64,000 nucleotides of DNA from Aphrocallistes beatrix (lineage: Eukaryota; Porifera; Hexactinellida; Sceptrulophora; Aphrocallistidae): contig OY725506.1 of the NCBI GenBank assembly GCA_963281255.1, positions 2,523,001 through 2,587,000 on the forward strand, read 5' to 3'. Each line of letters begins with the position of its first letter. Within the stretch, counting starts at the first letter, position 1. The notes under the pieces are model-generated. The model saw only the letters and a program-made list of their open reading frames with translations. It made no database searches and was not told the origin of the DNA. Position numbers and translations under genes: made by a program. Positions 1 to 51,102 of this stretch are shown here, one piece after another.

Positions 1-853
1 CATTTTCCATATAGCTAGCACACTAAAATACAACAGTATAGATTTTCAGATTCTAACTAGCTCCAAACCTATGTACCGCCCTCTTCCCTAGTTCCCATTA
101 TTGACACTCATGCACGCTGTTGTGTTTCGCTGTGTTTATCTTCATACTTTTCATAATGTGAAAGTGACATTATGTTTTACATTTTGTGATTCGGGAGGCT
201 TGTTAACCATTCCCACATTCAATTATATACGCAGCACCATACAAGTAACTAGCCGCTCTCGTTTGGGATTACTGACAAACTCATTTGAGGGTTTTTGACA
301 GAACTACCAATCCATTAGCGGTGCCTATGCACATCAATGTGATGATCCATTACCATCATACCACCTCAAGTTAACTCTTGGCTATGCCACTGCTTGTAAT
401 TCATCATAAATTGACTCAAAACGTGAGGAAATTTCAGTTTATATCTTCCATATCCATGTAAAATCTGTATATATATCTGTGTGAATATTTTCAATATTAT
501 CTAAAATTTTGCATGCACGTCTTTACAATGAATCTGGTTTTGTTTGGATATTCGAGTATGTAGATTTAGGTTCAACCATATCTTAAGTTTTTGGCTAAGT
601 ATATAAATGCCCGCGCTAAGTTGGAATATCCTATTTCACGCCACAAAGCTCAGAGATTCATACTGTATCTTTCATGTTCATGTACAATCTGTATATATTA
701 CTACCCGGAGATAAGTTTTTGTATAATTCATTATGTCATGTGCAATTAGTTTTAAAATATGTCTATTCATTAAGATGAAGACTCCCAAACGGAAATTAAT
801 ACAAATAATCGGTACCACCTTGTGCCAGATATGTCTTTAATTATTATTGTGCA
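1..853. other. AT-rich non-coding stretch
   Basis: No convincing coding region or RNA gene is visible. Short open frames here have no recognisable domain and no plausible splice context. It ends at the left inverted repeat of the hAT relic. Confidence 0.5.
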
Positions 854-4319: not shown

Positions 4320-5733
4320 CAGGGGCGGATACAGGGGGGGTCCGGGGGGGCCATGGCCCCCCCTGAAAATTTAACGAATTGATCTACGGGGGAGCTATTT
4401 GGGTCTAACCCCCCAGATTTTTGAACTTTAGCCCTCAATTATATGAGTTTATTTTCTCAATTCCAATGATATCTACTAAGATACTTCTTTCTTCAATTCA
4501 ATTATTCCGTTTTTACTGATTTCATCAGATCTGATTTACATTAACCCATAAGTGTAACAATTATTCCTTTATTTGAGACGAATACTCCAACATTAACTTC
4601 GAGTTTCCATTTAGATTCGATTGAGGTGAAAACTTGAGTATGCTACTATTTCATAGGCATCTACATAGGGCATTCCAAAAGTTCTCGTCCCAAATCTGTA
4701 TCTCAAATGAGAGTGAAAATATGATATTTTCAATTTGTCCATTATATTCCTTAAGGGATCAGCTTCCAATTTATATATTGTTTTATTTTAAGAGGACAAT
4801 TATTGTGGTTCCTATATTAGATTTTTGTACATCGGTTTAGGGCACTGCCTTTGAACGTGATCTTTGGGGTTCCCTTTGATATACTTTAGTTCTGAGCAGA
4901 TTTAGATTAAAACTGATCCCGCCATCCAATTCTACGCATCAAATAACATTTAGATTGAATTCTCTGAAGTATTATAGTTTGAGGCTGAGGGAATACTATG
5001 TTTAGAAGTGGTTTACTACCATTTTTGTCCCACTTTTTGAGTGGCGAAAATGACAAAAAATCCACTAAAAGTGGCATGATATATTTTCAACACGAGCAGT
5101 ACTATTGAACACCTCCCGATTACTTTTTCACATTGGTTCTTAATTATTTCACCTTTTAATGACCTTATTCTACGATTTTAACAACTTTTATTCTCCAAAT
5201 TTAGTTTTAAGCCATTTTCAATGGGAAGATTCCAACTTCTCGACACTACCCTAAACCGATGCATAAAAATCTAATAAAGGAACTACAATAATTGTCCTTT
5301 TAAATAAACCAATATAGAAATTGGAAGCTGATCCCTTAAGGAATAAAATGGACAAATTGAAAATATCCTATTTTCACTTTCATTTGAGATACAGATTTGG
5401 GACGAGAACTTTTGGAATGCCCTTAGTAAAATCCGTACAGAATTATTTTTCATTAGAATGCCATACATTGTATCATTATCACTATGTTGACTAAAACCTA
5501 AATATTCTCGCAAACGCTTGTGATGAATTGGCGCGAAGCACAAAGTGGTAATCAGGTTACAGAAAGGAAATTCAAATCCCGTATGAGATTTGATAAGAAT
5601 TGATGTACATTGATATTTGACCACCTTAAGTTAAAAAAATTTTCTGGGGGGTTCCCCCCCAGAACCCCCATTACATGCGCTCGCTCCGCTCGCTTTTGGC
5701 CCCCCCTGAGTCTAAACCCTGTATCCGCCCCTG
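4320..5733. mobile_element. Non-autonomous hAT-like foldback element with perfect 8-bp target duplication
   Basis: The ends are CAGGGGCGGATACAGGG and CCCTGTATCCGCCCCTG, a 17-bp perfect inverted repeat. They are flanked by the direct repeat CCATCATC at 4312-4319 and 5734-5741. An internal inverted repeat (about 4665-4850 against 5235-5440) would let most of the element fold back. Open frames inside have no recognisable domain. The intact target duplication suggests a fairly recent insertion. Confidence 0.9.
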
Positions 5734-5741
5734 CCATCATC

Positions 5742-6270
5742 ACAACAATCATTGCTCTTAACCTACAGCAGCACCTCTTTCAAACTCGCAAAACTGCAGA
5801 CTGCAGACGACTGCAGCATTCTACACATGTAGTACTACAGATCTACAAGTAGCATAACGACTACTGCATAGCTAGCATAGCATTGCTTATAACTGAATGT
5901 TTACAAAATATTTTGTGCAATAAATAGTGTTCATTTCTAAACTAGAAAAGTAGTAGATTCTACAGTTGCAAACCGATTTAAAGTTAAAATAAATTATCTT
6001 AGTCAAATAAATGAAGTAAAATTTATTGTTACAGAACTTTTGGATGATACTATATGTATGAGGTCACCCTCTCAACTGTGTTTTTCTACCCTTATATGAT
6101 GATTCCGCTATAATGCATAGTAAAAATTTCCGAAACCCAATACAAGTACCTAACACCAATGGTGTCACATATCTCAGGTTTACCAGTAGTTGTCCTGAAT
6201 AATGTTGCATAGAACTATATCGCACAACTCAGTTGCTTTCAGCAAAATTGAATCGTGTATGGTGGACTCA
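5742..6270. repeat. Copy A (right part) of the duplicated non-coding unit
   Basis: This continues the unit interrupted at 4312 and is similar to 8400-8825. Shared blocks include ACAATCATTGC with CAGCACCTC, and CTCAGGTTTACCAGTAGT followed by CAGCAAA. No gene is seen. Confidence 0.55.
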
Positions 6271-6732
6271 AGAATACTTCTAAGAGCTGCACTAAAGTGT
6301 TTACTATACCATCGCCCTGTAAAATTCCTCAAATATTATTTACTAATCCATCTTAGTGTGGATGTTGAAAAAGTATATATTTCTTAATATAATGTTTTCG
6401 TATTGAATTTTATTTCTCATAATTTACTTGTAGTTATTATTTCATAAATTGTTAATATCAATCTATTAGTTAAAACAATTAATCTTTTGATGTAGCTCAT
6501 AATTGAAATACCGTATCCTCAAATAGTAACTGGAGAAATAATTAATTATGAGTTTCATAATATTACAGATGAAAGAATAAGTTTTACTAAAGAGCATTTC
6601 AAAAAATGTAATAACTCAAATGACTTGATAAATGATAGATTCAATGATTTGTTGTAGATTTTTATTCTGAGATACCAATGCATTTTATATGCGCACATTT
6701 CGAGTATATAGTGATTACATATACTACTCATG
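6271..6732. other. AT-rich non-coding stretch
   Basis: No coding region, RNA gene or clear repeat was recognised. Short open frames here look like chance. Confidence 0.4.
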
Positions 6733-6804
6733 TACAGTAGCATTTATATGGCTTCGCACTTTTATGGCAGTGCCATATAGAATGGCTGGGAGAGAGTTGA
6801 CTGA

Positions 6805-9830: not shown

Positions 9831-10235
9831 AATGAATTACTTTCTAGAATTGAACTTGAAGGAGTACAATAGACCCCTATTAGACCTGAGATAATATAAA
9901 TTTAACACCGGAGACTCGCACAAATTGGCTATCTGGCTACATGCGACCTAAAAGACCGAGTTTGCGGAAGCTTGCATTAACAGTTGAAGGTAATTCTACG
10001 AACTCTGGTAATACTTCAAATTTCATGGTTTTCTAAGTTTTTAAAATTCAAACTCGCCATTTATTTTATTTTATTGCTTTTTACTTTCGAGTAGAAAATA
10101 TTTTAATTACCAAATTTGTTTCTAAATTCTAAATCAACAAAGCACATGTTAAGTCAACTATTAATTATAAATTGTCAATGCTACTTTAAAATTGTCTATT
10201 ATCGATCTTGTTTGTTTACTTAGAATATTTGTGCG

Positions 10236-13200
10236 ATGAGTGAGGAATTCTCTCTGATACAAATAGGAGATGATTTAAATGCAGAACAAATACAGAAACT
10301 TGCATCTCTTTTAAAGATTCCTTCTGGTTTGTACGAAAATGTCACCAAAGGGAACGAATTCTTGTACAAATTGAGGAAGTGGGGCAGACATGATCCCTAT
10401 ATTTTTTACCAAGGTTTAAACTCAATTGGTAGAGCAGATTTGTGTGAAATAGCCATAAATGTCAGATGGTTAGCCAGCGATCATCCCTTAGAAGGATTTG
10501 AAGGATTAGAGCCTGAAGAGTTATCAATGAAAACATTCGTGAAAGTATTTAAGTTCGAGTTTACACGAGAAGATTGGTTCCGCATGGGCATTATAATTCC
10601 TGAGCTAGATGCTGACAAGACATTTGAAGACAAAGTGAAAATGCTCATGCAGGAAGGTTACATTTCTAAAGACCTCAATGTGTTAATCAGATTAATGTCA
10701 CAAATTAAACGAAATGATATTGGAACAACATTCAAACAGTATCATGCTGTTTTCTTCAACATTCCAGAACCAGTTTTCAAATCAAAATTTCGAAAAGAAA
10801 TATCATTGCTTGAAAAGGAAATTACAACATGGGAAAGATCTCTAAGAATATTTATGGAATTACAGAATAAACAAGTTAAACAAATGCTTGACGACGATAA
10901 ACCAACCGACATCGAATCAGTTTATGTGGATCTAACGATTATAGAAGAGAGACCGAGACCTGTCGATCCCGAAGATGAGACCACATATAATGAAATTGCT
11001 TTTCTCCGAAAGATAGCAAATAAAGAAATTAACATAAGAGGGGTTGATTTCACGAATATAATAAAGAACTACAGTCCAATAAAGAAAAAGTGGTCCAAGG
11101 AAAATAAAGAGTGGGAGATAATAGGATACCTGCCAGAAATATGGTGTCTTATTGGAAACCCTGGTTGTGGGAAAAGTTTTCTCTGTCACAGGACAGCATT
11201 GCGATTCGGTAAAGGAGAACTTCCACAATTCTCATTCTGTGTATCGATTCCATGCAGAAACCATGACTGGCACGAAATGGAGAAATCGAGAGATAAAATC
11301 GGCAATATTATCGAGGGAGAATTCATACAAAGATGGTTGCGCTTATCCATGCCAGTAGGTCCTAGCTGGACTGTCGACTTGTCCAAGCATCTAGTCGAGT
11401 CAGATGGACACGATCTCCTTATAATAATGGACGGCTTGGATGAATTCCTAAAAGAGGTTCCCTTCCAACAAACTCTCCTCTTCTTACTCCTAACTCGCAA
11501 GGCACTAACTCAATCTACCATCATAGTAACAAGTCGACCAGGAGCCTACACGAAGATTTCACAAGAACACACACTCAATATAGACAGATTCTTTCAGGTT
11601 TTGGGTTTTTCCCCTAAAAACAGAGACCGATACTTCCAAATACAACTGCCTCAAGTTGAAAAACATAATCAATTAAAAGAACTTCTTCATCTCCACGATG
11701 AGATAAACCAGCTGAGCTTAATTCCTGTGAATGCGTCATTGTTTGCAGCTCTCGTCCGCGGATCTGACAATATCACTGCACATACTCTAACCAATCTCTA
11801 TTCAGAGTTAATTGCATACTTGATTCGTCGACAACTGAACAGAATGGGGCTGGAACACATGTCTGCAAAATCCCTCTTCACTCTAGATCCCAATGTTCAG
11901 GAATGTTTGTTTACTATTGGAGAGCTTGCTTACCTTGGAATCTATAGCCGTGAGTTGATCTGTACTAAGGACATTCTCCTTACAGTAGACAAGGAAGAGA
12001 AATCCTGTCAATGCCTAGGCTTAGCAGAGGAACATATAAGAAAAGACCACCTGGGTCGAATAATGCGTGTGTGGTCCTTTGCGCACTTAACGATCCAGGA
12101 ATTCATCGGTGCTTTCTGGCTATTTTCCTGTTCATGGCGAGACCAGTGCTTAAGCACACGATATGTAGTCAACACTGAGGATACATTTGTAATGTTTAAA
12201 ATGAATTTTAGATTCCTTTGTGGTCTGCTATCTAACTCTGCTAGAAATGTATTAAGCATACTCTACCGACATCTCCCTACACTACCAATTTCAATGGAGA
12301 ATATGCCTATGAAGTATCAATTAAAATATGAATATTCCATTTACGCAGAGGAAATTCCAATGACTGAGTATTTGGGTTGGATTGAATTTACAAAGACATT
12401 CATTGTAATATCTGAAATTCTTTCTGAATGTAACTCGGACTCTATAAATAAATCCTATTCTATTGTCCGACAATTCCTTCCTAATAAAATATATTTATAC
12501 ATCAGTAGTACCATATCACCGAATGAATGGAAATGTTTTCTCCAAACTCTTCCTCTCCTGAAGTCCATTCAACTAATTCAGTTCGACACTAATTACATCA
12601 ATGTGTCTCAGTTCCGTTCTCTACTGACACAATTAACTTCATGCTCTCTCAGCTTATTAGCTGTGAGGTTGAATGTGATAAAAGAAGATTGTTATTCCAC
12701 TATTAGATCGTATAGTGACGCGATTATAGACAGTAAGCTACGATCTGAAACTAAGATTAGCTTAGAACTTCACCATTGTGAACTCACAGACATTGAATCA
12801 GATTATTCCTCTAACAAGTTTTTCCAAATCTTCAAGAATATTTGTTTATATGAAACAGAATTATCAACTCAGTCTGTGCAGGAGCTGTCTAATCAGATTA
12901 TTTCTACAGATAACTTGTATTATAATCCTCATTCCTCTGATTCCACTGACTACGTCACAATACTGAAACATCTCAACAAAGCTACGCAGCTGAACAGTAT
13001 ATTTCTCTATAATATTCCTGAAGAATGTGTCAAGCTGTTGCAATCTCATTTGCCTCTACTCTCCAATCTTCAGGAGATAGGATTGAATGGAGATGTAGGA
13101 GTTCCTTGTGCATCATTACTACCTCATATAAGCACACTCTCCAATCTCAAATTCCTATGTCTACATCCTGGATATCCTGACACTAGTTATAAAGAGTATT

Positions 13201-13685
13201 TTCTACAAATTCTTAATTCAAACACTAACTCACTGAAAGGTTTGGAATTAAATTCTATACAGTATATCGGACTAAACAATTGGAGTGAACTTCTGTCTTC
13301 TCTTCTAACCTGCACGAATTTAGTATATATTCAGCTATGTTTCATCAGTCCACAAGATGATGACGTCACACTCTGGGGTAGAGTAATGACTACACTCAGA
13401 TGCTTAGTTTATTTGTATATGTTGCTTGTACCACTATCTGATTCTGCTCTGTCATCTCTATGTGCAGGATTCATACATCATCGTAACATCAGATGTATAG
13501 TACTACGGAGGTGTGAGCTGAATGCTAACTCTTGCAATATTCTCACACAACTCATACCTACTGTAACACTATTGAAGAAACTTGACATTAGTTTTAATGG
13601 ACTCTCTAAACTAACTCCAGATACTACAAATCTTCTAAGACAGACAGCTGAACTTTATTCTATAACTCTTGAATGTAGTCTTTAA
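10236..13685 (+). CDS. NLR-type receptor: DED-like/NACHT/LRR, 1,149 aa, single exon
   Basis: This is a probable intracellular sensor of the NLR (STAND ATPase) class. Residues 10-85 look like a death-effector-type fold (helical, with the FLYKLRKW motif), and 100-170 may be a second death-fold. The NACHT core is clear: P-loop GNPGCGKS at 307-314, Walker B LLIIMDGLDEF at about 394-404, and the TSRPGA sensor at 432-437. The winged-helix signature FAHLTIQEFIGAF starts at 615, and degenerate leucine-rich repeats fill about 720-1149. All catalytic motifs are intact, so it should be functional. A pyrimidine-rich tract ending in TTTACTTAG lies 13 nt before the ATG, so a 5' UTR intron or upstream exon is possible. 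Which pathway it feeds cannot be told. Expanded NLR sets are known in sponges and cnidarians. Confidence 0.92.
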   Translation: MSEEFSLIQIGDDLNAEQIQKLASLLKIPSGLYENVTKGNEFLYKLRKWGRHDPYIFYQGLNSIGRADLCEIAINVRWLASDHPLEGFEGLEPEELSMKTFVKVFKFEFTREDWFRMGIIIPELDADKTFEDKVKMLMQEGYISKDLNVLIRLMSQIKRNDIGTTFKQYHAVFFNIPEPVFKSKFRKEISLLEKEITTWERSLRIFMELQNKQVKQMLDDDKPTDIESVYVDLTIIEERPRPVDPEDETTYNEIAFLRKIANKEINIRGVDFTNIIKNYSPIKKKWSKENKEWEIIGYLPEIWCLIGNPGCGKSFLCHRTALRFGKGELPQFSFCVSIPCRNHDWHEMEKSRDKIGNIIEGEFIQRWLRLSMPVGPSWTVDLSKHLVESDGHDLLIIMDGLDEFLKEVPFQQTLLFLLLTRKALTQSTIIVTSRPGAYTKISQEHTLNIDRFFQVLGFSPKNRDRYFQIQLPQVEKHNQLKELLHLHDEINQLSLIPVNASLFAALVRGSDNITAHTLTNLYSELIAYLIRRQLNRMGLEHMSAKSLFTLDPNVQECLFTIGELAYLGIYSRELICTKDILLTVDKEEKSCQCLGLAEEHIRKDHLGRIMRVWSFAHLTIQEFIGAFWLFSCSWRDQCLSTRYVVNTEDTFVMFKMNFRFLCGLLSNSARNVLSILYRHLPTLPISMENMPMKYQLKYEYSIYAEEIPMTEYLGWIEFTKTFIVISEILSECNSDSINKSYSIVRQFLPNKIYLYISSTISPNEWKCFLQTLPLLKSIQLIQFDTNYINVSQFRSLLTQLTSCSLSLLAVRLNVIKEDCYSTIRSYSDAIIDSKLRSETKISLELHHCELTDIESDYSSNKFFQIFKNICLYETELSTQSVQELSNQIISTDNLYYNPHSSDSTDYVTILKHLNKATQLNSIFLYNIPEECVKLLQSHLPLLSNLQEIGLNGDVGVPCASLLPHISTLSNLKFLCLHPGYPDTSYKEYFLQILNSNTNSLKGLELNSIQYIGLNNWSELLSSLLTCTNLVYIQLCFISPQDDDVTLWGRVMTTLRCLVYLYMLLVPLSDSALSSLCAGFIHHRNIRCIVLRRCELNANSCNILTQLIPTVTLLKKLDISFNGLSKLTPDTTNLLRQTAELYSITLECSL

Positions 13686-35120: not shown

Positions 35121-38100
35121 TTAGTTTGTAGGCTCAAGATTTAGGGAATTCAACCCTATATCGTTCTTGCCATCACCACCGTTCAAAGCATTTTGTGCTT
35201 TCTTTTTCTCCACTAAATCCGGATACTTTTTGATAAAGACGAATAGCGTTATTAGCCCAATACCAGAAGCAGATAAAGCTGATACAGAAACTCCAATGGT
35301 TAAGTAAAATAAATAAACTGCAATAGTAGCAATTCCATTTTGAAGTCCTACAGCTACAGTTGGAGTTGGAGTTTGAGTTGTTGTTGGAATTGAAGTTGAA
35401 GTTGGAGTTGGAATTGAAGTTGGAATTGAAGTTGGATTTGGAGTTGGAATTGAAGTTGTTGGAATTGCTGTTTCTGTAGCTGACTGTTGTACAGAGGGAA
35501 TAATTGAAACGGTAGAAGTTGGAGCAATAAAAACGTCTGTTGTTGAAGAAAATCCCTCTGGAATAGACGTCATTTGGATAATATTGGTGGAACTTTCAAT
35601 ATCTTGGCTGCTACTGGGAGTTGGTTCGAGTACAGATAAAGACGAAGTTACTATTCCGGGCGTAGACTCAACTGATGATGGAATTGAAGAGGATATGACT
35701 GTTGTTGTTGGTGGTTGTGGTATGACTGTTGATGATGATGGTTGTGGTGGTGTGATAATTATTGGTGGTATAAGCGAATCACTCAGGATAATTCGCCAAG
35801 AGGGATCCCATATATCTGGGCAAGAATTCCCTGTGGGGTAGAGAAAAGCAAAAGAAATTGAGGAATTTAGATCAAATATCTCAATCGTAGGCGATTGGTA
35901 TTGCATAGGAGAAGGATTTAAACCAACAGAAAAGTCTAAAGTTTCATTCAACATCCCAGAACAGATTCGATTCATGCATGCAGGATCAATTTCAACGGTC
36001 AGGTTATAAAGCGTTGAATTCGCTTGAAAAGTGACGAAATAATCCATGATTGGTTCTGAACAATTCGTCGCATTCGCACTTGGTGGCAGTGAAAGTGTAT
36101 TGAAATTAATACTCTCATTCCCACCATTAACTGTGACTTGCAGCTTGTAAACAGTGTTTTCATTTAAACCTTGAAACCCAGACGTGAGACTTGAACTAGA
36201 CAATAGAGTATCGATTTCTTGTCGTCGTTCAATTGAACCCATTGGCGTGGAAAGAGTGATATCACCATTGATAATTACATTCTCTGGCGTGATCGAGAAA
36301 TTGAACGTCACCGAGTTCGGTGTGATAACAGTTGTAGTTATTGTGATAATGAAAATGACTGGCGATTCGAATTCGAAGCGTGTAATACACCCGAAAGCAC
36401 CTATTAAACCAGGTCGATTGAGTGGATGAACTTTGATAGTACATGTTAGACCAGGGATGCCTGAAATAACACTCGTAAAATTGTCACTATTAGCTGAACT
36501 CACAGATACTGAGCAATTATAAGCTACTATGGACATGCATTGGCTCAGATTGCTACCAATGCAGAAATCAGGATTGATAAAGTTAAATTGGAATTCTGAA
36601 CCTGATGGTGAAAAAAAACAATTTTCTGCGGTTGGCCAGTTGGGTAGAGTTCTCATCTCTGTTGAATTGGTAAAACGAGAACCACATAAGGTGTTGGCGG
36701 TAAAACTGACTGTATGAGTTGTGTTTTGATTCAAATTCTCAAAAATAGTTTCCCTTGAAATGTTTCGTGATCCAACACCATTCAAAGTGAATGTATAACT
36801 CTCAATGCCTAATTCTTGAAAGCTAAATCCGTCGTGAAGGACAACGCGAATAGTGGAATCAGTTGGAATGTAAGAAAAGTCGAAGTGATCAAATTGACTG
36901 GTGGAATTACAACGTGTGAAAACTGCATTTGTGTCGCAGGTAGCGATAGAATTTTGTGGGGAGTATAGTGAACCCCTCAACGTGCAGGTATCCCAAGGAA
37001 ATTGGTACGGGAAAGTAAGCACATTATCAGATGAACTCGCGATACAGAATTGATTGCCACTACAGGTAATACAGGTAGTTAGAGCGACGGATGGTTCGGG
37101 GGATGGAATGCGAATGGAAGAAAAAGTGTCAGTAAAAGGACAAATCGCATTGTAAGCTGTATAAGCGATAATATCAAGAGTCGGAACCGGTCCATAGATA
37201 TTCGTACGCGCAATCATGATGTAATATCCAGCCAATGGAAGTAGGCCAGTGAATTCTATCATCACAGAAGATGATGTTGCATTCCTTGAGGTATTACTGG
37301 TTGCTGAGGAATGTATGCTGTTCAATGGTGTTATTGATATCATTGAAATCATCTCTAGAGAAAAATCACAATTAATGGATACAGTTATAGTGGTCATTGT
37401 AGTTGAGACTATTGTTAATCGACAGGTGTCGTCAACTGTGAGTATAGCAATCGGGGGAACTGTTGGATACACCTGTGCAGGAGAATACTGTACACAGAAA
37501 CTCGTCGTGACATTCCATACGCACTCAGGATCTCGAAAGCATTCTAGTGCAGTTGCATAGGTATAACAGAGTTGAAGTGAAGTCTTATATAACTGGTTAG
37601 TCGTGATTGAGTAGAGAAATTTTTCACCGTTTTCCTCGCGTATTTCTGGATTCAATAAAGCAGTGTCGGCAATCTTAAATTGACTCACAAACGAAATGGA
37701 ATAGTCTGCCCTCATTTTAATGAGATAACCATCAAATGTTGTCGCATAGAAGAGTGTAATATTTATCAAGCCATTTGTAGTAAGCCTAGAAACCGTGTCG
37801 ATCACAACGGATTCAAAATGTTTCTCAAAAATTAATTCGGCATCATTGTGGACGATAGTCAAATGTAATAATTTTTGGTAGGCAGCTGAGAAGAGGTTAC
37901 CAACGCCGTCATCACGTGTTGTTATGTCACTGCATGTCCAAGGGTTGACTGAATTCTCGCTTATAGGGGTAGAGCCATCAAAAATGTTATAATAATTACT
38001 CCTAAAGCCTTGTTCAATGTTATTGTCCGACGTATTAGTCGAAGTTCTGTTTGAAAAGAATCTACAAACAGCAGAAGCTTGGTTTGTAGAGCTACCAGCA

Positions 38101-39074
38101 TCTTGACTTGTGAAAAACCCATACATCGTATCAGCATCGAGAATAAAAAATTGTTTGAGCGAAGTATACACATATGATGTGTCACTAGGATAGCGAATAA
38201 CCCCAGTTGGATCTCTACAGTCAATGGTTATTTTCGTGTATGTGACTGGGTTTGTTGGTGAATAATGCTGACCTAAATCATTGGCGCAAATACGTCCCAG
38301 TCGCCCATGGCGTGATGACTGTTCATAAAGCCCATTTGATGGCGATTCTAGCACTGTCTCTGTATATGGGAAATAAATAAAATCAAACTCTGCGGTATTG
38401 GTATTGCTGAAACGAGATATTTTACCCACAATAGGATCATTAAAAAAGGAGGTAGCTGAAGTCAAAGCCGTTAACCGAAAGGTATCTGTAATAAAAGGAA
38501 TATCACCAAAACTTGGAGAATCGCCAGTATAATTAGAAAAATTAAACAAAGCCAAATTATATGGTTCTTGGCTCGCGACGTCATCAAAATATTGTGAATA
38601 TATCACATTAGTTTCGGTATTTACATATAAAGCACTGAAAAAGTAAGATGAATCTGCTTTCAGATGTCCAGACAAATGAATTTGTTGGTAGCCAAGCTCA
38701 TTTTGAGTACTTAAATCGTAGAAAAAACAGCCTCCTAAGCCTCCATTAGAACCACATATTAGTGCATTGTTTGGGTAGAGGAAAATATGATCGATAACAT
38801 TTGCAAAACAAAATGGTTCAGGTATAATGACACAAAATGGAGCATTTTCTCGCAAAGGGATGCTAATTGGTTGCAAAGAACTGAAGTTGGATGACGTAGC
38901 CGTAGAAAGAGCACTTGCATTACGACCTAAATAAATGTCACTGCCATCATTAGAGATGGAGAAAGTGTATAGGAGATTGGCATCGGGACTGGTGGTAGAT
39001 AGGATGGCTTGAGATGAAGCAAAAGAATAGAGTAAAGAAGAAATGAAAAGTTGTAATAGCGGAGAGTGGATCAT
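35121..39074 (-). CDS. SEMA + PSI single-pass membrane receptor, 1,317 aa, single exon
   Basis: The protein starts with a signal peptide (MIHSPLLQLFISSLLYSFASS). Residues about 25-500 fit a SEMA beta-propeller, ending in the typical TLFYATTFDGYLIKM strand region. A PSI domain (about 503-535, CYTYATALECFRDPECVW) follows. Fibronectin-like segments with many N-glycosylation sites come next, then a Ser/Thr/Pro mucin-like stalk (about 1108-1240) and one membrane span near 1254-1281. The cytoplasmic tail is only 36 residues, with no plexin RasGAP domain and no kinase. SEMA+PSI is the module of semaphorins, plexins and Met receptors; a surface guidance or adhesion role is inference. It is complete and lies on the same strand as the adaptor gene about 1.3 kb upstream. 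Confidence 0.85.
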   Translation of the reverse strand: MIHSPLLQLFISSLLYSFASSQAILSTTSPDANLLYTFSISNDGSDIYLGRNASALSTATSSNFSSLQPISIPLRENAPFCVIIPEPFCFANVIDHIFLYPNNALICGSNGGLGGCFFYDLSTQNELGYQQIHLSGHLKADSSYFFSALYVNTETNVIYSQYFDDVASQEPYNLALFNFSNYTGDSPSFGDIPFITDTFRLTALTSATSFFNDPIVGKISRFSNTNTAEFDFIYFPYTETVLESPSNGLYEQSSRHGRLGRICANDLGQHYSPTNPVTYTKITIDCRDPTGVIRYPSDTSYVYTSLKQFFILDADTMYGFFTSQDAGSSTNQASAVCRFFSNRTSTNTSDNNIEQGFRSNYYNIFDGSTPISENSVNPWTCSDITTRDDGVGNLFSAAYQKLLHLTIVHNDAELIFEKHFESVVIDTVSRLTTNGLINITLFYATTFDGYLIKMRADYSISFVSQFKIADTALLNPEIREENGEKFLYSITTNQLYKTSLQLCYTYATALECFRDPECVWNVTTSFCVQYSPAQVYPTVPPIAILTVDDTCRLTIVSTTMTTITVSINCDFSLEMISMISITPLNSIHSSATSNTSRNATSSSVMIEFTGLLPLAGYYIMIARTNIYGPVPTLDIIAYTAYNAICPFTDTFSSIRIPSPEPSVALTTCITCSGNQFCIASSSDNVLTFPYQFPWDTCTLRGSLYSPQNSIATCDTNAVFTRCNSTSQFDHFDFSYIPTDSTIRVVLHDGFSFQELGIESYTFTLNGVGSRNISRETIFENLNQNTTHTVSFTANTLCGSRFTNSTEMRTLPNWPTAENCFFSPSGSEFQFNFINPDFCIGSNLSQCMSIVAYNCSVSVSSANSDNFTSVISGIPGLTCTIKVHPLNRPGLIGAFGCITRFEFESPVIFIITITTTVITPNSVTFNFSITPENVIINGDITLSTPMGSIERRQEIDTLLSSSSLTSGFQGLNENTVYKLQVTVNGGNESINFNTLSLPPSANATNCSEPIMDYFVTFQANSTLYNLTVEIDPACMNRICSGMLNETLDFSVGLNPSPMQYQSPTIEIFDLNSSISFAFLYPTGNSCPDIWDPSWRIILSDSLIPPIIITPPQPSSSTVIPQPPTTTVISSSIPSSVESTPGIVTSSLSVLEPTPSSSQDIESSTNIIQMTSIPEGFSSTTDVFIAPTSTVSIIPSVQQSATETAIPTTSIPTPNPTSIPTSIPTPTSTSIPTTTQTPTPTVAVGLQNGIATIAVYLFYLTIGVSVSALSASGIGLITLFVFIKKYPDLVEKKKAQNALNGGDGKNDIGLNSLNLEPTN
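35355..35500 (-). repeat. Coding minisatellite for the Ser/Thr/Pro stalk
   Basis: Units of about 12 bp (TTGGAATTGAAG on the plus strand) encode repeated PTSIPT-type residues in the mucin-like stalk of the SEMA protein. Confidence 0.75.
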
Positions 39075-39201
39075 TATGGAGATCCAAAAATACTAATTGT
39101 ATAAAGATTAAAATAAACGAAAATAGTTCAATTATGAAGCAGATAAATCGGTATTACAATCCCAGAACAACGAACAGAGGTGTAAAATGCACACACATAT
39201 A

Positions 39202-40330: not shown

Positions 40331-42937
40331 TTAAGAAGAATCTTGAGCAATTTCGGGAGATTGAAGGGAATTTTCGCTATCTTCTCTTATAGTTGCTTCG
40401 TTTTTGATGACGTCAGTGTTTGAATCTACATTAACTGCATCGTCATTCAATTTTTCACTTGGAATAACAGCTACATCATCGTGCATTTCATCATTTCCAG
40501 TTACGTCATTGTGAATTTCATCATTTTGTATCATGTCATTCTGAGTTTCATCATTTTGAGTGACGTCATTGTGAATTTCATCATGTTGAGTGACGTCATT
40601 GTGAATTTCGTCATTTTGTATCATGTCATTCTGAGTTTCATCACGTTGAGTGACGTCATTGTGAATTTCATCATTTTGTATCATGTCATTCTGAGTTTCA
40701 TCATGTTGAGTGACGTCATTGTGAATTTCATCATTTTGTATCATGTCATTCTGAGTTTCATCATTTTGAGTGACGTCATTGTGAATTTCATCATTGTGGA
40801 TATCATCATTTTGAGTGACGTCATTGTGAATTTCATCATTCTGGATTATGTCATTCTGAGTTTCATCATTTTGAGTGACGTCATTTTGAACTTCAGCATT
40901 TTGTGAAATATCCTCTTTTGTTTCGTGAGTCTTATTACTCGCTTTTTTAACATCATCAATTGATGCGTACTCGGGCATATTATCCTTCTGGTGGGATACT
41001 TTCACGTATCCTTTCTGCTCACGCAGCTTTGATAAATTTTGTGAGACTTTTTCATCTACTTCCGGTTCAACATTTTCAAATCGTGGGGTAGCGTATTCAT
41101 CTTCATTTTTCGGACTCGAAGCAATCTTGGACTTTGGCTCATCATCATCACCACCATCATCATGTACTTCACGATCAATTAAATCGACAGGCACTTCGTA
41201 TGTAGGCGTTTTGACCTCCGTACCTATAGACTCATACATGGGCATTTTGGCCTCACTATGAGTATCTTTAAGCGTTATTTTTTCTGTACGAATATCCTCG
41301 TACATTGGCGGTTCTTTCGAACCTAATACCACGTTTGGTTCTTCGTAAGGCTGGCATTCAACTAGGGTGGAATACGTATGATCACCTATGCTCTCATCCA
41401 GACTAATGCCAAGTGCATTTTTGTCAAGAGTTCGTGATTGCTCAGTCGTGAGAATATCATCAGATTTGACAGGGGGTTCAGGGGCAATTGGTGTCTTTTT
41501 AGCACGCTTTTGCTCGAGGACTTTAGCTACTGAGGCATAGGACTGTGTTTCGTCATCTGAATCATGTGGTGGCTCTGGAGGTGCTAAACCTAGTACATGT
41601 GGAAGTGTCTGTGTAACTATGTCCTCATCTTTATGGAAGTCAGAAAAAATGGACTTAAGGGACATGAATTGTTGTGATTCAGGTTCATTCTTTCTTTTCT
41701 CAACAATTTCTTCCTCGATTTTTTCCGTCGTTGTATCAAAAGAAGGATCGGGTAATAGAGCTTCAATTGCACCACTCAATCTTCTCTCTTCTTCTTTCTT
41801 ATAGCGCTGTTCCTTTTTCCTCCTTTTTATCTCTTCAGAATCGACATACTGATGAGGTGCCTTTTTAGCATCATTCGGCAGCTGAGGTAGTGCCCTTGTT
41901 GGCAATTCGAGATCAGATAGAGGATCACTGGGAGTGATGGGTGACTTATCTTTTGCTTGTTTTTTTACATCATCAATGCAAGAATAAGCTTGATCTATTT
42001 CCATAGGTGATGTATTCCCATCTTCACTCTGTTTATAATCCACAGCTATGATAAGGTCAGGTGCTTTTTTCTCAGCACGTTTTTTCTTAGGGTCAAATTT
42101 CAGTTCTGAGTATGGCCCTTCAGCACTAGATGAACTGCTCCTAGATTCTCGAGATGCGAGCGGTTTTTTAGACGCGTTAGCTTCAATGCAGGAATAACCT
42201 TCTTCACTGTCGCTTGCAGCTAAATCTTTAGGAACAGGTGGAAGGGCGCCTCTGTGTTTAGCTATCTCGGTAGAACTCTCGAAAGATTTATGCGGCGATT
42301 CAGGCTGAGGCTGATCAGATGAAGCAACTTTTTTACGTTCTTTTTGGAAGAACGGTGCAAATGACTTTGTTTTTTTACGTTGTGGATTCTCATCAATCGG
42401 TTCATTTGGGGTAACTGGATCTGGGTGCTCAGCTTTATCCCTTAAAGAGTTCCGATTTTTTTTCCGACTCTTTTTCATATCCTGTGCTGGGGCTTTCAAC
42501 ATGTCTTTCTGTACAGGAAGTCGTGGCGCCGGTAGAGACGGTGGGTTTTGCACTATTTTAATCTTTTCATGGTCAACAGAAGCATATGCGTTCTCATCGT
42601 TATCGTCTGAGCATGGATTCGAGGTGGGAGAGACTGTCTGGTTTTCATCCTTAATACTCTCATATACTTCTTCGCTTGTGTTGGTCGTTGGTTTGTTGAT
42701 GATTGGACGTGTGGTATTGCTTGGCATCGAGCCTAATCGGAGATTCCGTGCTGGTAACTGTGGAGGGTTGAAGATGGCCTTTGCTGGACTGGTAATTGAG
42801 CGAGGTTTGGTTGTTATTCCTTCATCAGAAAGGGTTTGTTTCAATTTCTGTTTTTCTTGCTTTTTTTCAGGCTCATTAGGTTGAGTGTTACTACTCTTCG
42901 CTTCGCGTATGGGTGCGTAAGGATTTGAGACTCTCAC
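40331..42937 (-). CDS. Adaptor exon 2 (cytoplasmic tail)
   Basis: It begins VRVSNPYAPIRE after TATACAG and ends in a TAA stop. Codons upstream of 42937 are intronic. It contains most Tyr motifs, the PxxP motifs and the C-terminal repeat. Confidence 0.82.
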   Translation of the reverse strand: MRVSNPYAPIREAKSSNTQPNEPEKKQEKQKLKQTLSDEGITTKPRSITSPAKAIFNPPQLPARNLRLGSMPSNTTRPIINKPTTNTSEEVYESIKDENQTVSPTSNPCSDDNDENAYASVDHEKIKIVQNPPSLPAPRLPVQKDMLKAPAQDMKKSRKKNRNSLRDKAEHPDPVTPNEPIDENPQRKKTKSFAPFFQKERKKVASSDQPQPESPHKSFESSTEIAKHRGALPPVPKDLAASDSEEGYSCIEANASKKPLASRESRSSSSSAEGPYSELKFDPKKKRAEKKAPDLIIAVDYKQSEDGNTSPMEIDQAYSCIDDVKKQAKDKSPITPSDPLSDLELPTRALPQLPNDAKKAPHQYVDSEEIKRRKKEQRYKKEEERRLSGAIEALLPDPSFDTTTEKIEEEIVEKRKNEPESQQFMSLKSIFSDFHKDEDIVTQTLPHVLGLAPPEPPHDSDDETQSYASVAKVLEQKRAKKTPIAPEPPVKSDDILTTEQSRTLDKNALGISLDESIGDHTYSTLVECQPYEEPNVVLGSKEPPMYEDIRTEKITLKDTHSEAKMPMYESIGTEVKTPTYEVPVDLIDREVHDDGGDDDEPKSKIASSPKNEDEYATPRFENVEPEVDEKVSQNLSKLREQKGYVKVSHQKDNMPEYASIDDVKKASNKTHETKEDISQNAEVQNDVTQNDETQNDIIQNDEIHNDVTQNDDIHNDEIHNDVTQNDETQNDMIQNDEIHNDVTQHDETQNDMIQNDEIHNDVTQRDETQNDMIQNDEIHNDVTQHDEIHNDVTQNDETQNDMIQNDEIHNDVTGNDEMHDDVAVIPSEKLNDDAVNVDSNTDVIKNEATIREDSENSLQSPEIAQDSS

Positions 42938-45900
42938 CTGTATATGAAAATGGAGATAAATACAGTACAATAGAACTCGGTCAGTACTCGGATAATATGT
43001 TCTTCGGTTTAGTACGTACTCATTTCTCTGAACCAAAATCCATCTATAATATAGATTTCTATGTAATACAAACTCGGCTAGTACGTACTGATAATTCCTT
43101 CCCGTCTTATCCGAATTCTACTGTATATGTGTTATCGTCAAAACGTCAAATCAGTTATTATGTATAGTACCTGGGAAATCCATGCATTTTCCATCAGTTA
43201 TTATGTATAATGCCTGAGATTTCCACGTATTTCACATACAGAATACTTATATGGAGCTAAGCGACAATGTCACTGACTCTAGCGATCATAGATGCCAAGT
43301 TTTGGAAAATAGAATAAAACGGTTAAGAGCGAGCGACGGGAAGGGAGGTCTGGGGGGCTTGCCCCCCAGAAAAAATTTTAAATCTTAGATGCTCAAATAT
43401 CGATATACAGCCATTGTTGTTACCTAGGGAAAATAAAATCTCGGATTATAGTGGAAGAAAAATGTAATTGGGATATAGTTGTAGCCTATAAGTTTGTGTG
43501 GAGTCCTGCCATACCACAGCTTCCTCCACTGCTCCATTGCCCAGCACCACGGCCTCCCGAGCACCTAGATAAACCCCTGGATGGGAATCACTCTCATAAT
43601 AGTTAACAAATGAGCAAAGATATGTAATATCATTCGAAAAATTTTTCTCGATTATTTGTTGATTCGGTGCAGATTTTTTACGATCGTGACCCATTTCAGC
43701 CGTATTTTAAACAGAGACGTAGTCAACTCAATTTTAGAGTGTGGCAAGGGTGAAGCAAGGATGCGGCAAGGGTGTAGGTAGGCCATAGGCGCCGAAACCG
43801 GGGGGGGGGGCTCAAGCCCCCCCCTAGAACTCTGAAATTGCCCTTAGATTTCGAAAAGTTCAGCGCCCCTGGGTGGGTGCGAAAACTCATCTGGCAACAC
43901 TGAACAGGACCAACCTGGGCCACTTTTGAAAATGGTTAAAGCCGTATAAACCGGACAAGTAGCGCCAGGCCTGATATAGATTTTGAATTATTTACACCAG
44001 AAATATTCTGAAATAGTAAGAAAAACCGGTTTCAATTCAGGGCATTATACGGCCTTCCAGAAATTCTCATTTTCATACGCCTCAATCGATAAATAACATT
44101 ATAATATAGGGTAAATTGGGTGTTATTCTAAATTTTCACACTCCTAAACACCTAGATAATGCTTGTTTCAACTATACTTGATGAGGTGGAGTTCACCTCA
44201 AGGAATTATCTAGGAGCGCGAGACGCTCCTTTAGGTGCATGATTTTAAGCCTCAAAGTGTTTAGGAGCGTGAAAATCCAGAATAATACCCAATTTACCCA
44301 ATATCATGTCATTTATCGATTTAGGCGTATGAACATTTATAAATTTTAGAAACAGTCGACTCCGCTTAATAGGGTCACATCGGTCAGAGGACATTTTGAC
44401 CCGATTAAGCGGAGAACCCTATTAACCCAAAATATTTTGTATTAGCTTCTATATGTGCGAGTTATTCCGGTCCTGCCGAAAGTGGCCCGATTAAACAGTG
44501 AACCTATTAAGCAGAGTCGACTGTATCTCTGGAAGGCTATATAATACCCTGGTTCACCTATTAGCAACATTACTCTATTTACAACCAATTTTCAAGTCAT
44601 AAGTGTAGATTTTATATTAATTCAGTTCCCTTATTAGCTACTTTCTCCTGGACAAAACCCGAGTTGAATAAGAATAACAATAATAAGCGAATTCAATCAG
44701 TTAAACACAAATAGAATGAGATTAGGAGCTGTCCCAGGAGAAAGGCTAGCCTATGACGAAAGGGTATGGTGGAAATAGTTAGTGGAAATAGCCCAAAAAC
44801 CGGAAATAGTTCGACTTTCCCAAAAAGGAAATAGTTCACATGAAAACCACCATTAATCCTAATGATAAAAAATCGAACTATTTCCTAAATCTGCAATTCG
44901 AACTATTTCCTTATTCGAAAAGTCTAACCATTTCCGCATTACCGACGAAAGCATGGAGAACTCTCCCCCCTTCCCAGCTCCTGGTTTGCTAAATTCCTGA
45001 GACTGCCACTGTTCGAGATGACATACATGACAACTATTCCGTTTTTGGAGGGACGTCCCGCTTTTTTAGCTCTTTTTATGGGCTAATTTTCTCGAGCGTC
45101 CAGTTTTTACATTAAATTTCCCTATTAAAAATGTCCCGATTTTTTGGGGTCCATGTATCAGTGCTCGAAAAATCTGCTGGTTTATATAACCACCAAATTC
45201 CTGAGCATAGTGGCTAACAAAACCATCAAATTTTATGAAGTACTGGGCTATTTATATCGTGTAATTAGAATTTGTGCTAACCCAGAAAAAGTAAACGGGT
45301 GGTTAAGATAGTCACCATCATATAGTCAGGGTCGCTTATTGTGAACCACCAGGGGACCAAAAAATCTGTTCATAATAGAGATACAGTCAGGGTCGCTTAA
45401 TATGAACACTCGTTTATTATGAACTAACCTCCTGATCCCAATTTCATTTTTTAGATAGGATTTGTATTGAATCAAGTTCACTTAATATATTATGAACAGA
45501 TTTGTTGGTCCTCTGGTGGTTCACAATAAGCGACCCTGACTGTATTTTGATTTGGTCAAGCATTGCCATGCATAATACTTTTCTATTGCGTCACGCCATG
45601 TCCCGCGAAATTCAACGCTCCATCCCGCTTTTATCATGGCTCAAGTTGGCATTTATGAGATGGTAATGCGGAAATGGTTCGACTTTTCGAAAAAGGAAAT
45701 AGTTCGAATTACATATTTAGGAAATACAGTCGACTCTGCTTAATAGGGCCACATCGGTCAGGACATTTTGGCCCGATTAAGCGGAGAGCCCTATTAACCG
45801 AAAATATTTGTATTAGCTTCTATGTGTGAGAGCTATTCCGGTCCTGCCAAAAGTGGCCCGATTAAGCGGTTGACCCAATTAAGCAGTGACCCTATTAAGC

Positions 45901-46774
45901 GGAGTCGACTGTAGTTCGACTTTTTATCATTAGGATTAATGGTTGCTTTCATGTGTGAACTATTTGCTTTTTTGGAAAGTCGAACTATTTCCGGTTTTTG
46001 TGCGAACTATTTCCACCATACCCTCAGATTAGTGGCGTAGCCAGTGGCGCCGACAAGGTCCTACCAGGGGCTACGGTCCGTCTTAACTGGGCCTGCAGGA
46101 ACATTTTCTGGGCCTGCAGGATATTTAGTGGACCTGCAGGCTCTGCAGGCCCATTGGCTACGCCTATGCTTCAGATTAATACAGTTTTTTTTCTCTGAAC
46201 TCACTTCGTCATATTGTGGATCTTTCGAATCAGCTTGAAGTGAGCTATCCTCCGAGATTGTTATCTCCTCAGTCACATTCAAATTCTCCACCACAGTGGA
46301 ATACTGTAGAGACTGCGAGCTGGCGTCTTTAGAAAGACTCGGTGAAGATCCTGGCACTACTAGAGAATCAGACGGCATCAGGATATTCTCTGTAGAGACA
46401 GAATGCGTCTCTCTCTCATTGAGAATAACACTGGACGGCGTGTTAGAGAATAACAAATTCATCATTGAAACGTTCTTATGATCAACTGACTTAGAATTCT
46501 CCTCCATCTCTTTCAAGGTACGTTCATCTATAATGACTGTGTCAACAACTGGAGGAGGTGTAATAACGGCTTTTTCCTCGTTGATGTTATGATTGGTGAT
46601 GTTATTCAAGCTTGTTCTTGAGTCTGCGATAAGGTGTGCTGTGTTATCATTAGTTTTTTTGAGACAGTTGAAAAGAATGAGAGTTAGAAGGAATATTGAG
46701 ATGAAGACGCTTGAGATGGTGGCAATCGCGAAACTTGACACCTCTTGAGTTGTCTCGATAGGAATAGGCGCCAT
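40331..46774 (-). CDS. LAT/PAG-like transmembrane adaptor, 2 exons, 1,058 aa
   Basis: Exon 1 is 46774-46205 (190 aa, donor GAA|GTGAGT) and exon 2 is 42937-40331 (868 aa, acceptor TATACAG); both join in phase 0. A 14-residue N-terminus precedes a membrane span (15-35), Cys37 and KK, fitting a palmitoylated transmembrane adaptor. The long cytoplasmic tail carries about 16 YxxI/V/L/P motifs (YSTV at 158, YDEV at 188, YAPI at 197, then YESI, YASV, YSCI, YSEL, YEDI, YASI and others) and PxxP motifs such as PPQLPAR and LPPVPK. Such motifs recruit SH2 and SH3 proteins after Src-family phosphorylation. The C-terminal part (about 868-1005) is a 20-residue repeat of NDxxQ units. No catalytic domain is present. 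Homology to LAT, PAG or NTAL cannot be shown from sequence motifs alone; convergence is possible. Confidence 0.8.
40493..40905 (-). repeat. In-frame coding tandem repeat (60-bp units)
   Basis: Units of 60 bp, made of four related 15-bp subunits, encode NDETQ-NDMIQ-NDEIH-NDVTQ. Seven copies of the CRE octamer TGACGTCA occur in it, at 40561, 40591, 40651, 40711, 40771, 40816 and 40876. Confidence 0.88.
42963..43123. mobile_element. Family C MITE in the adaptor intron
   Basis: The ends CAGTACAATAGAACTCGG and CCGAATTCTACTG are flanked by TA, just upstream of the exon 2 acceptor. Confidence 0.75.
43286..43585. mobile_element. Family M MITE, inverted orientation
   Basis: It is the mirror of 27657-27969, with blocks AGCGAGCGACGGG, CTCAAATATCGATATACAG and GGAGTCCTGCCATACCACAG. 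Confidence 0.75.
44038..44551. mobile_element. Family H element split by family B
   Basis: It starts CAGGGCATTATACGGCC and ends GGCTATATAATACCCTG. A complete B element occupies 44353-44523. Confidence 0.8.
44353..44523. mobile_element. Family B MITE nested in family H
   Basis: The ends are CAGTCGACTCCGCTTAAT and AAGCAGAGTCGACTG. The right flank is TA; the left is AA. Confidence 0.82.
44764..44945. mobile_element. Family N element
   Basis: It contains GGTATGGTGGAAATAG at the left and CCATTTCCGCATTACCG at the right, similar to 39473-39634. Confidence 0.7.
45022..45657 (+). mobile_element. Family A copy split by family D and other sequence
   Basis: The 5' half (about 45022-45155) and the 3' half (about 45585-45657) flank a stretch containing two overlapping D elements (about 45323-45542). 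Confidence 0.65.
45665..46022. mobile_element. Family N element split by a family B element
   Basis: Family N halves surround the B element at 45727-45911, whose ends CAGTCGACTCTGC / GGAGTCGACTG are flanked by TA. Confidence 0.78.
46205..46774 (-). CDS. Adaptor exon 1 (membrane span)
   Basis: It begins at an ATG with no signal peptide and encodes the span FAIATISSVFISIFLLTLILF. It ends PQYDE at GAA|GTGAGT. Read-through past this donor runs into a repeat. Confidence 0.8.
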
Positions 46775-49761: not shown

Positions 49762-51102
49762 CTATTGATCTGCACCTTGAGCAGTATCACCTGTATCAAC
49801 GATATTCTCATAGTTGATTTCCTCGTTAGTGATGGCCTTGTAGAGTTGAGTGATGTCACGACATGTCGTCTCGAAATGGGTTGTCGCGTCGTAGGATTTA
49901 CTGATGAAGCAATGGGAGGTTTTGTCCGTGGCTGTGTCGATTGGGACGAAGCAGTCATCTACTTTGACGAACTTATGCACGACAGGACCAAGCACTTTTA
50001 AGGCTGGGAAGATTTCCTTTTCAGGGTCAGCTGTCTCAACTGTAGTGCTAATCATGGCGATGTAGTAGTCCTTCGAAGCAACATTATGCGCAAAACTCAC
50101 CATTGAAAGGTAAATATCGTTGTTACGTCCGACTTGATTCTGAGGGAAAATAATTTGACAAGACTTCGCATTACTGGTGTTTGGAATCGGATGATCGAGG
50201 ATACAGATGGCACGGATCACCTGACCGATTTTCTTCACACGTGTGGGGAAATAGGAGGGGTCACCAAGCACGATTTTCGCACGTGCAGTCTGTCCTTGTG
50301 ACTTAACACCGGTCACTTTTCCGTCCTCGAAAATGACCTCATCAACCGGTTTATCGAGCATGTACGTGCCACCGTAGATGGCAGATAAACGCGCGAAACC
50401 TTGAGGCAACTCTCCCAGACCGTATAGAGGATAGAGGTACGGTGAATTCCCATAACGAGCCATCGATTCGCAATACAATTTGATGCGAGAAATCGGTTCC
50501 AAGCAACTTTGGTCCAAGTATTTATCGTTCAGGAATAACCCCATCGCGTGACCACAGAAATCTTTGGTGTTATCATCCAGCCCGAAATTAGTGAAGACAT
50601 CACGCATCGTTAGGGATGGAGCTATTTTCGCGTCTTTTGGCGGTTTTGATTCGTCAAAATCATTGATGGCAGAAAGGAAATTTTTGAAGCGGCGTTTTTC
50701 AAAAATTCCCATCAGAGATGTGGCTAGTGCTTCTTTTTCGTTCGATGGGACTTTAAAAATCTTCTCACCTTTGTAGACATAACTCCCTTCAACCGATTTG
50801 AATTCGAGATACTTGGTGACGCCGGTTTTTATCAATATTTTCACCAACTGCCCGCTGGCCATCAGGAACTTTGGAATAAGGTCAACATTCCAATCTCGTG
50901 GACGGCTGTTAGGGAGGGCAGTAGGATCCTTCTGAAAATGCTTGAAAAGATCATCAAGCGGCGTAATGGAAGCACTCTCACCTCCGTAGTATTTATTCCG
51001 ATCCATGTGGAGGACTTTTCGTCCGGACACGGATAAAAGTCCGCTTAGAATGCATTCTGTAAGGCCTGTACCAAGCACGATCACGTCATATGACTCATCC
51101 AT
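49762..51102 (-). CDS. GDI2: Rab GDP dissociation inhibitor, 446 aa, single exon
   Basis: A full-length Rab GDI, a cytosolic protein that extracts prenylated GDP-Rab proteins from membranes and recycles them. The N-terminus [20 protein letters not shown] and the YYGGESASI motif are hallmark GDI sequence. The downstream [21 protein letters not shown] block is the conserved third region. Length matches animal GDI (about 445-447 aa), which separates it from the longer Rab escort proteins. The symbol refers to the family; GDI1 and GDI2 cannot be told apart. A TATATATAA-like box lies about 50 bp upstream of the ATG on the minus strand. The lack of introns is unusual for this conserved gene and may mean a retrocopy, although the frame is fully intact. 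Confidence 0.95.

Follow-up and report, generated by a model that had tools for sequence, protein, structure and literature searches.

Did the adaptor layout seen in vertebrate lymphocytes originate as an immune invention, or is it a solution that recurs? A locus in a stretch of 64,000 nucleotides (contig OY725506.1, positions 2,523,001 to 2,587,000, hereafter the window) bears on this question, as an earlier note had described there a gene for a transmembrane adaptor of LAT/PAG-like design in an early animal. Transmembrane adaptors have a short extracellular part, one span and a long tail with several potential phosphotyrosines, according to the available part of a paper (PMC2803307). Given the predicted splice, the protein encoded in the window would have the layout of this class, with a short N-terminus, a single span and a tail of tyrosine motifs. 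We think it somewhat probable that this single-span protein, which has hardly any ectodomain and a long, presumably disordered tail, is a lineage-specific adaptor and a multi-site phosphotyrosine docking platform for Src-type kinases, Csk and other SH2 proteins.

The predicted gene and its protein

The features of the gene in the window are listed below.

46205..46774, minus strand: exon 1 (570 bases), with the start codon, the N-terminus, the span, the juxtamembrane Cys/Lys and the first part of the tail, including Y158 and Y188
46667..46732, minus strand: predicted membrane span, residues 15-36, from hydropathy and an AlphaFold helix
46655..46666, minus strand: Cys37-Leu-Lys-Lys at the predicted cytoplasmic face, one possible palmitoylation site
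42938..46204, minus strand: predicted intron, GTGAGT...ATACAG, phase 0, 3.3 kb, from donor and acceptor scores
40331..42937, minus strand: exon 2 (2,607 bases), with the remaining, predicted cytoplasmic tail (868 aa) and the stop codon
40958..42919, minus strand: stretch that starts at Y197, finishes with the Y847 motif and holds 15 of the 17 Yxx[IVLP] motifs, from a motif scan
42746..42763, minus strand: PQLPAR, class II SH3-binding type, residues 249-254, from a motif scan
41876..41896, minus strand: RALPQLP, class I SH3-binding type, residues 538-544, from a motif scan
41756..41839, minus strand: charged helix, residues 557-584, from the tail model; part of it coincides with EEIKRRKKEQR, which is the best-conserved block in a relative on contig 8
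40476..40903, minus strand: array of about 14 copies of a 10-residue repeat at the C-terminal end, tyrosine-free, from the sequence

Joined in phase 0, minus-strand exons 46774..46205 and 42937..40331 give a predicted protein of 1,058 aa; the coordinates, phase and length of the two-exon model in the earlier note were all exact. With an in-frame TAA immediately 5' of the start codon, the frame has no upstream extension, and use of this ATG would fix the N-terminus. The donor (GAA|GTGAGT, at the exon 1 end CAATATGACGAA|GTGAGT) is the sole GTRAGT on the minus strand across the 6.4 kb of the gene. When 36 GT sites were scored by a simple 9-position consensus, its score was equalled by a single further GT within the exon 1 frame, at 46276 and also in phase 0, the use of which would cost 24 residues and Y188 and leave the rest unchanged. 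The acceptor (TATACAG|G, in CATATACAG|GTGAGA) is in frame and had the top score, 15, among the AG sites from -180 to +150 bases around the exon 2 start, the next being 12.

Coding signal was assessed with a codon-usage score trained on two genes of the window only. The predicted frame was the best of the three sense frames (0.169 per codon in exon 1 and 0.119 in exon 2), and the score was about zero just past the donor and -0.241 just before the acceptor. When the repeats were removed from exon 2, one antisense frame scored slightly above the predicted frame (0.119 versus 0.104), and codon usage alone therefore leaves the strand of exon 2 unsettled. In our view, the strand is settled by the 868-codon open frame and the motif pattern. 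Read on past the donor, the exon 1 frame crosses a tandem array (46086-46140) and reaches a stop whose last base lies 144 bases beyond the donor. Judged by these signals, exon 1 is probably spliced to exon 2.

Residues 15-36 form the only strongly hydrophobic stretch of the protein, with a Kyte-Doolittle mean over 19 residues (KD19) of 2.54 at residue 17, the best value past residue 60 being 0.74. AlphaFold, run on exon 1 alone, gave a single helix from residue 10 to 67, with a mean predicted local distance difference test score (pLDDT) of 95 for residues 21-30 and 93 for residues 31-40. Fourteen residues precede the span; two acids stand before it and Lys-Lys after it, and by the positive-inside rule the N-terminus would be outside and the tail cytoplasmic. 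The 14-residue N-terminus, the one span and the following Cys37 and KK, all reported in the earlier note, are present in the predicted protein. Residues 191-869, folded alone with no alignment, had a mean pLDDT of 44 (542 of 679 residues below 50) and seven helical pieces, the charged helix 557-584 being the most confident. Low pLDDT obtained in this way is weak evidence for disorder; the model suggests that the tail may be disordered.

Tyrosine motifs of the tail and candidate partners

All 20 tyrosines of the protein fall within residues 158-847, N-terminal to the repeats, and 17 of them are in Yxx[IVLP] motifs (14 Yxx[IVL] and three YxxP), the exceptions being Y491, Y554 and Y569. Shuffled tails had a mean of 5.13 such motifs and none of 20,000 reached 17; for Yxx[IVL] the corresponding figure was 3.3, and again none of 20,000 reached 14. 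The preference for I, L or V is confined to position +3 (14/20), with counts of 0-6 of 20 at all other offsets from -6 to +6. At +1, S, A or T is found in 10 of 20 cases (4.59 expected, P 0.007), and S, A, T or an acid in 16 (P 0.00015). The commonest form in the tail is Y[SAT]x[IVL], with nine sites among the 20; the expectation for Y[SAT]x[IVLM] is 0.84, and 0 of 20,000 shuffles matched the count. Two motifs belong to exon 1, Y158 (YSTV) and Y188 (YDE|V, with the V encoded in exon 2). None of the 20 tyrosines is in YxN (1.06 expected) or YxxM (0.31 expected), and the immunoreceptor tyrosine-based inhibitory motif (ITIM) form, [SIVL]xYxx[IVL], occurs once, which is chance level (0.92 expected).

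SH3-binding motifs are also in excess. PxxP occurs 16 times against 6.8 expected (1 of 3,000 shuffles), and class II SH3 motifs five times against 0.94 (P 0.003). RALPQLP, in the class I form, we take to be near a Src SH3 ligand. The several PxxP motifs reported in the earlier note are thus borne out, and its figure of about 16 tyrosine motifs was close to the actual count.

The same genome has 62 places with an SH2 domain (PF00017), and translations from stretches holding 60 of these were surveyed by eye. A Src-type SH2 has Yes, HCK and Fyn as its best PDB matches; in its surroundings, by eye, lie an SH3 exon, kinase exons and a C-terminal end whose tyrosine is presumably at the spacing of the Src tail. 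The best PDB match of a Csk-type SH2 exon is CSK (8.6e-17), and downstream of it, again by eye, are kinase-like exons, the last-looking of which ends without a tyrosine. By eye only, SHP2-like (a pair, at L005/L016), Grb2-like (three), Crk-like, Abl-like, PLC-gamma-like and RasGAP-like SH2 domains were seen. This genome thus encodes candidates for the writers, an eraser and the readers of a tail of this kind.

Two other findings of the survey concern kinases. Three near-identical SH2-kinase genes, Fes/Fer-like by eye, lie within 60 kb on contig 1 (L024, L025 and L026, about 10.73-10.79 Mb) and are recent tandem copies. On contig 12 (L040, 1253000-1256600), several SH2 domains stand in a row, one of which resembles by eye the C-terminal SH2 of Syk; this is possibly a Syk-like tandem-SH2 kinase.

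Without a lipid anchor of its own, Csk relies on adaptor or scaffold proteins, in vertebrates for example PAG/Cbp, for access to the membrane, as stated in the available part of PMC10382208. In the mechanism that we propose, Src-type kinases would be held on the tail through SH3-PxxP contacts and through SH2 contacts with acidic YxxI/V sites, which include YESI, YEDI and YDEV, and the tail would be their substrate. Cytosolic Csk could then be drawn by the Y[S/A/T]x[I/V/L] sites (9/20) to the membrane, where Src would be switched off again, and an SHP2-like phosphatase might perhaps be drawn there by these sites as well. The three YxxP sites may recruit Crk, RasGAP or Nck-type SH2 proteins for an extra output. 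By analogy, the protein would work like vertebrate PAG/Cbp, with no kinship implied. The splicing, topology, disorder and phosphorylation of the protein, its binding partners and the sign of its effect on Src are inferred, and the weakest step is the partner, Csk, because its preference is taken from general background and is common to other SH2 domains.

The contig 8 relative and rival explanations

When exon 1 was searched against its own genome at E up to 1, it found itself only. The tail (677 residues), searched in the same way, had a single match besides itself, which lies on contig 8 (E 5.2e-5, 37% identity).

L033 6733..5699, minus strand: coiled-coil/tail gene on contig 8, from the tail search of the own genome

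In this gene, the tail that follows a coiled-coil-like N-terminus is related to the window protein over residues 538-761 of the latter. The alignment score of 221.5 compares with 113 for the highest of 300 shuffles. There are 166 aligned codons, of which 70 encode the same residue, 31 of them by a different codon, and the differences at codon positions 1, 2 and 3 number 71, 59 and 94; this pattern, in which the third position differs most, fits past constraint on the protein. All five tail tyrosines of the relative are in Yxx[PVL] motifs (YKPP, YACV, YENL, YESV and YENL), and the alignment places tyrosines of the relative opposite Y712, Y736 and Y758 in the window protein. The EEIKRRK block, PEPPxDS and MYEDIRT/VYESVRT are common to both proteins. 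Unlike the window protein, the relative has a coiled-coil N-terminus in place of the span, an in-frame stop and two YENL motifs, a YxN form. The earlier note had held that orthologues in related species without the span or the tyrosine motifs would refute its proposal; the relative bears on this in part, since the motifs are kept and the span is absent from the stretch read, but in a paralogue and not an orthologue.

At this locus, three neighbouring open frames of L033, at 381-1640 (+), 4359-5321 (+) and 6116-6733 (-), have a common coiled-coil-like N-terminus and differing C-termini (NHL-like by eye, unknown, and the adaptor-like tail), which is domain shuffling in a local cluster.

Several observations weigh against the docking platform. 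No Pfam family, PAG included, was found when the whole protein was searched by hmmscan at E up to 10, with filters that drop most matches above E of about 0.1. The 46205/42937 junction is itself a prediction. The predicted protein has no CxxC, and Cys37 is its only cysteine near the span. Acids in the four places before the tyrosines are at most weakly enriched (15/20 versus 10.9, P 0.05), and the two class I SH3 motifs are not a significant excess (0.94 expected, P 0.24). Y554, Y569 and Y657 have no aligned tyrosine in the contig 8 relative, and the block best kept between the two proteins is the charged helix (EEIKRRK) rather than a tyrosine motif. The relative is without a membrane exon in the stretch read and has one mid-frame stop; because of this stop the copy may be dead, that is, a pseudogene. 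The Csk SH2 consensus, Y[TAS]x[MIV], overlaps those of SHP2 and other SH2 domains.

One rival explanation is that the two exons do not belong together. If they were parts of different transcripts, exon 1 would be either a small gene of its own or an alternative to another first exon, and the tail would be a soluble disordered docking protein with another N-terminus, behaving like Gab, IRS or p130Cas. Such an arrangement would suit a junction predicted from sequence alone, the 3.3 kb intron, and the fact that the sole relative in the genome (E up to 1) has its tail on a coiled coil, with no span in the stretch read. We regard it as unlikely, since the splice sites match in phase 0, with the only GTRAGT in the gene and the best acceptor in frame, the predicted sense frame of both exons carries coding signal, the end of exon 1 holds two further YxxV motifs, and the unspliced exon 1 frame would run into the tandem array and stop within 144 bases.

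Other explanations concern the motifs. Isoleucine, valine or leucine at +3 is the bare YxxΦ form, found in 14 of 20 cases here, and the motifs could be mainly AP-2 type sorting signals of an endocytic cargo or trafficking scaffold. The 17 motifs over 690 residues would be far above what sorting needs, and SH2/SH3 signalling is favoured by S, A, T or an acid at +1 in 16 of 20, by the three YxxP sites and by the over-representation of PxxP and of class II SH3 motifs; we consider a sorting role improbable. It is very improbable, in our estimate, that the protein is an inhibitory docking protein of the ITIM type that mainly recruits an SHP2-like phosphatase. The genome does encode the SHP2-like SH2 pair seen by eye at L005/L016, and Y158 (LQYSTV) fits the ITIM form, but this is the only one of the 20 tyrosines to do so, and the ITIM type was rejected as the principal explanation on this chance-level count. 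The docking platform for Src-type kinases and Csk is the explanation that we favour. A further and more tentative proposal, which we hold to be possible rather than probable, is that a PAG/Cbp-like Src-Csk membrane scaffold arose independently, as a lineage-specific protein, in an early-branching animal of sponge grade, and that the tail module, in the manner of an exchangeable docking-tail kit, was attached to a coiled-coil protein as well.

Genomic setting and comparison with known adaptors

Other genes of the window include, at 10224-13682 (+), a 1,153-aa open frame, a candidate NLR-type innate sensor, that combines a NACHT domain (2.3e-17) with an N-terminus that is death-effector-like, though below the Pfam cut-off. 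Adjoining the adaptor, at 35124-39092 (-), a single 1,323-aa frame has a signal-peptide-like start, a long ectodomain, a Ser/Thr/Pro-rich stalk, one span and a short tail; it is plexin/semaphorin-like by eye and had no Pfam match at E 0.001. A Rab GDP dissociation inhibitor of 446 aa is encoded in a single open frame at 49765-51102 (-).

The attribution to an early animal is plausible and unproven; Src-type, Csk-type and homeodomain places (19 of the last) are present in the genome. Wnt and innexin had no match in genome searches in which no control responded. Among 30 cysteine-protease loci, 12 fit the active-site pattern, and each of the 12 carries the ordinary Cys instead of a silicatein-like Ser. 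The Wnt and innexin negatives and the protease Cys are compatible with a glass sponge; a paper entitled 'Animal multicellularity and polarity without Wnt signaling' (PMC5684314) treats, in its available part, two glass sponges. Src and Csk predate animals, being present in choanoflagellates and filastereans according to the accessible portion of PMC5876402, and the accessible portion of PMC5889215 has nothing on early-animal adaptors apart from the age of Src kinases.

In the open-access literature, searched with narrow terms and excluding subscription papers and preprints, we found no such adaptor outside vertebrates among the titles and abstracts listed, which is a weak sign of novelty, and no description of an early-animal route of Csk to the membrane. 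An adaptor layout in a genome with Src-type and Csk-type SH2 domains offers a concrete candidate for the membrane anchoring of Csk in early animals. If the independent origin is true, this lineage solved the problem of anchoring Csk at the membrane with a transmembrane adaptor of its own, separately from vertebrate lymphocytes.

Searches for kin elsewhere gave little. The tail had no match among PDB sequences at E up to 10. The tail exon had 132 pattern matches in prokaryote contigs, none confirmed at E 1e-3, and 12 in viral contigs, none confirmed, both results being silent on other sponges. A genome search with the Pfam PAG model (PF15347, 428 positions) was uninformative, as no control responded. 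Membership in the PAG or LAT family is not claimed because there is no sequence match, and the likeness may reflect convergence or divergence beyond recognition; with no Pfam family at E up to 10, the earlier note was right to leave homology unclaimed. Its LAT/PAG-like design stood as a general layout, nearer to PAG/Cbp, and LAT did not stand as the model, with YxN in 0 of 20 tyrosines and no CxxC.

A short ectodomain, a span and a Tyr-rich tail are common to the window protein and LAT, NTAL/LAB and LIME. YxN, the Grb2/Gads-type motif of LAT, is absent from the window protein, and a LAT-type reading was rejected for this lack. Pfam holds LAT models, and the window protein matched no Pfam family, neither for this group nor for SIT, TRIM and LAX, which have far shorter tails. 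According to the available part of PMC2803307, CxxC is present in LAT, LIME, NTAL and PAG, whereas LAX, SIT and TRIM have no palmitoylation site; the window protein, lacking CxxC, differs in this from the former and resembles the latter.

The absence of YxN and the nine Y[SAT]x[IVL] sites make the window protein more like PAG/Cbp than LAT. It differs from PAG1/Cbp in having no Pfam PAG match, one Cys, no CxxC and 20 tyrosines, and it is more than twice as long as the Pfam PAG model of 428 positions and ends in a repeat array. PAG has a PDZ-ligand end, and the window protein ends in QDSS, without one. PAG1/Cbp and the window protein are alike in the short ectodomain, the one span and the tail with many tyrosines, and PAG, too, has PxxP motifs; the Csk-type Y[SA]xV sites of PAG have candidate counterparts in the nine Y[SAT]x[IVL] sites here. 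Src-type and Csk-type genes, a context related to that of PAG1/Cbp, are present in the genome of the window protein. In the available parts of the sources, PAG has 10 potential Tyr sites (PMC6082945), and Csk, once bound to a phosphotyrosine of PAG, is brought to the membrane and the Src kinases there (PMC6082945, PMC10016382, PMC10382208).

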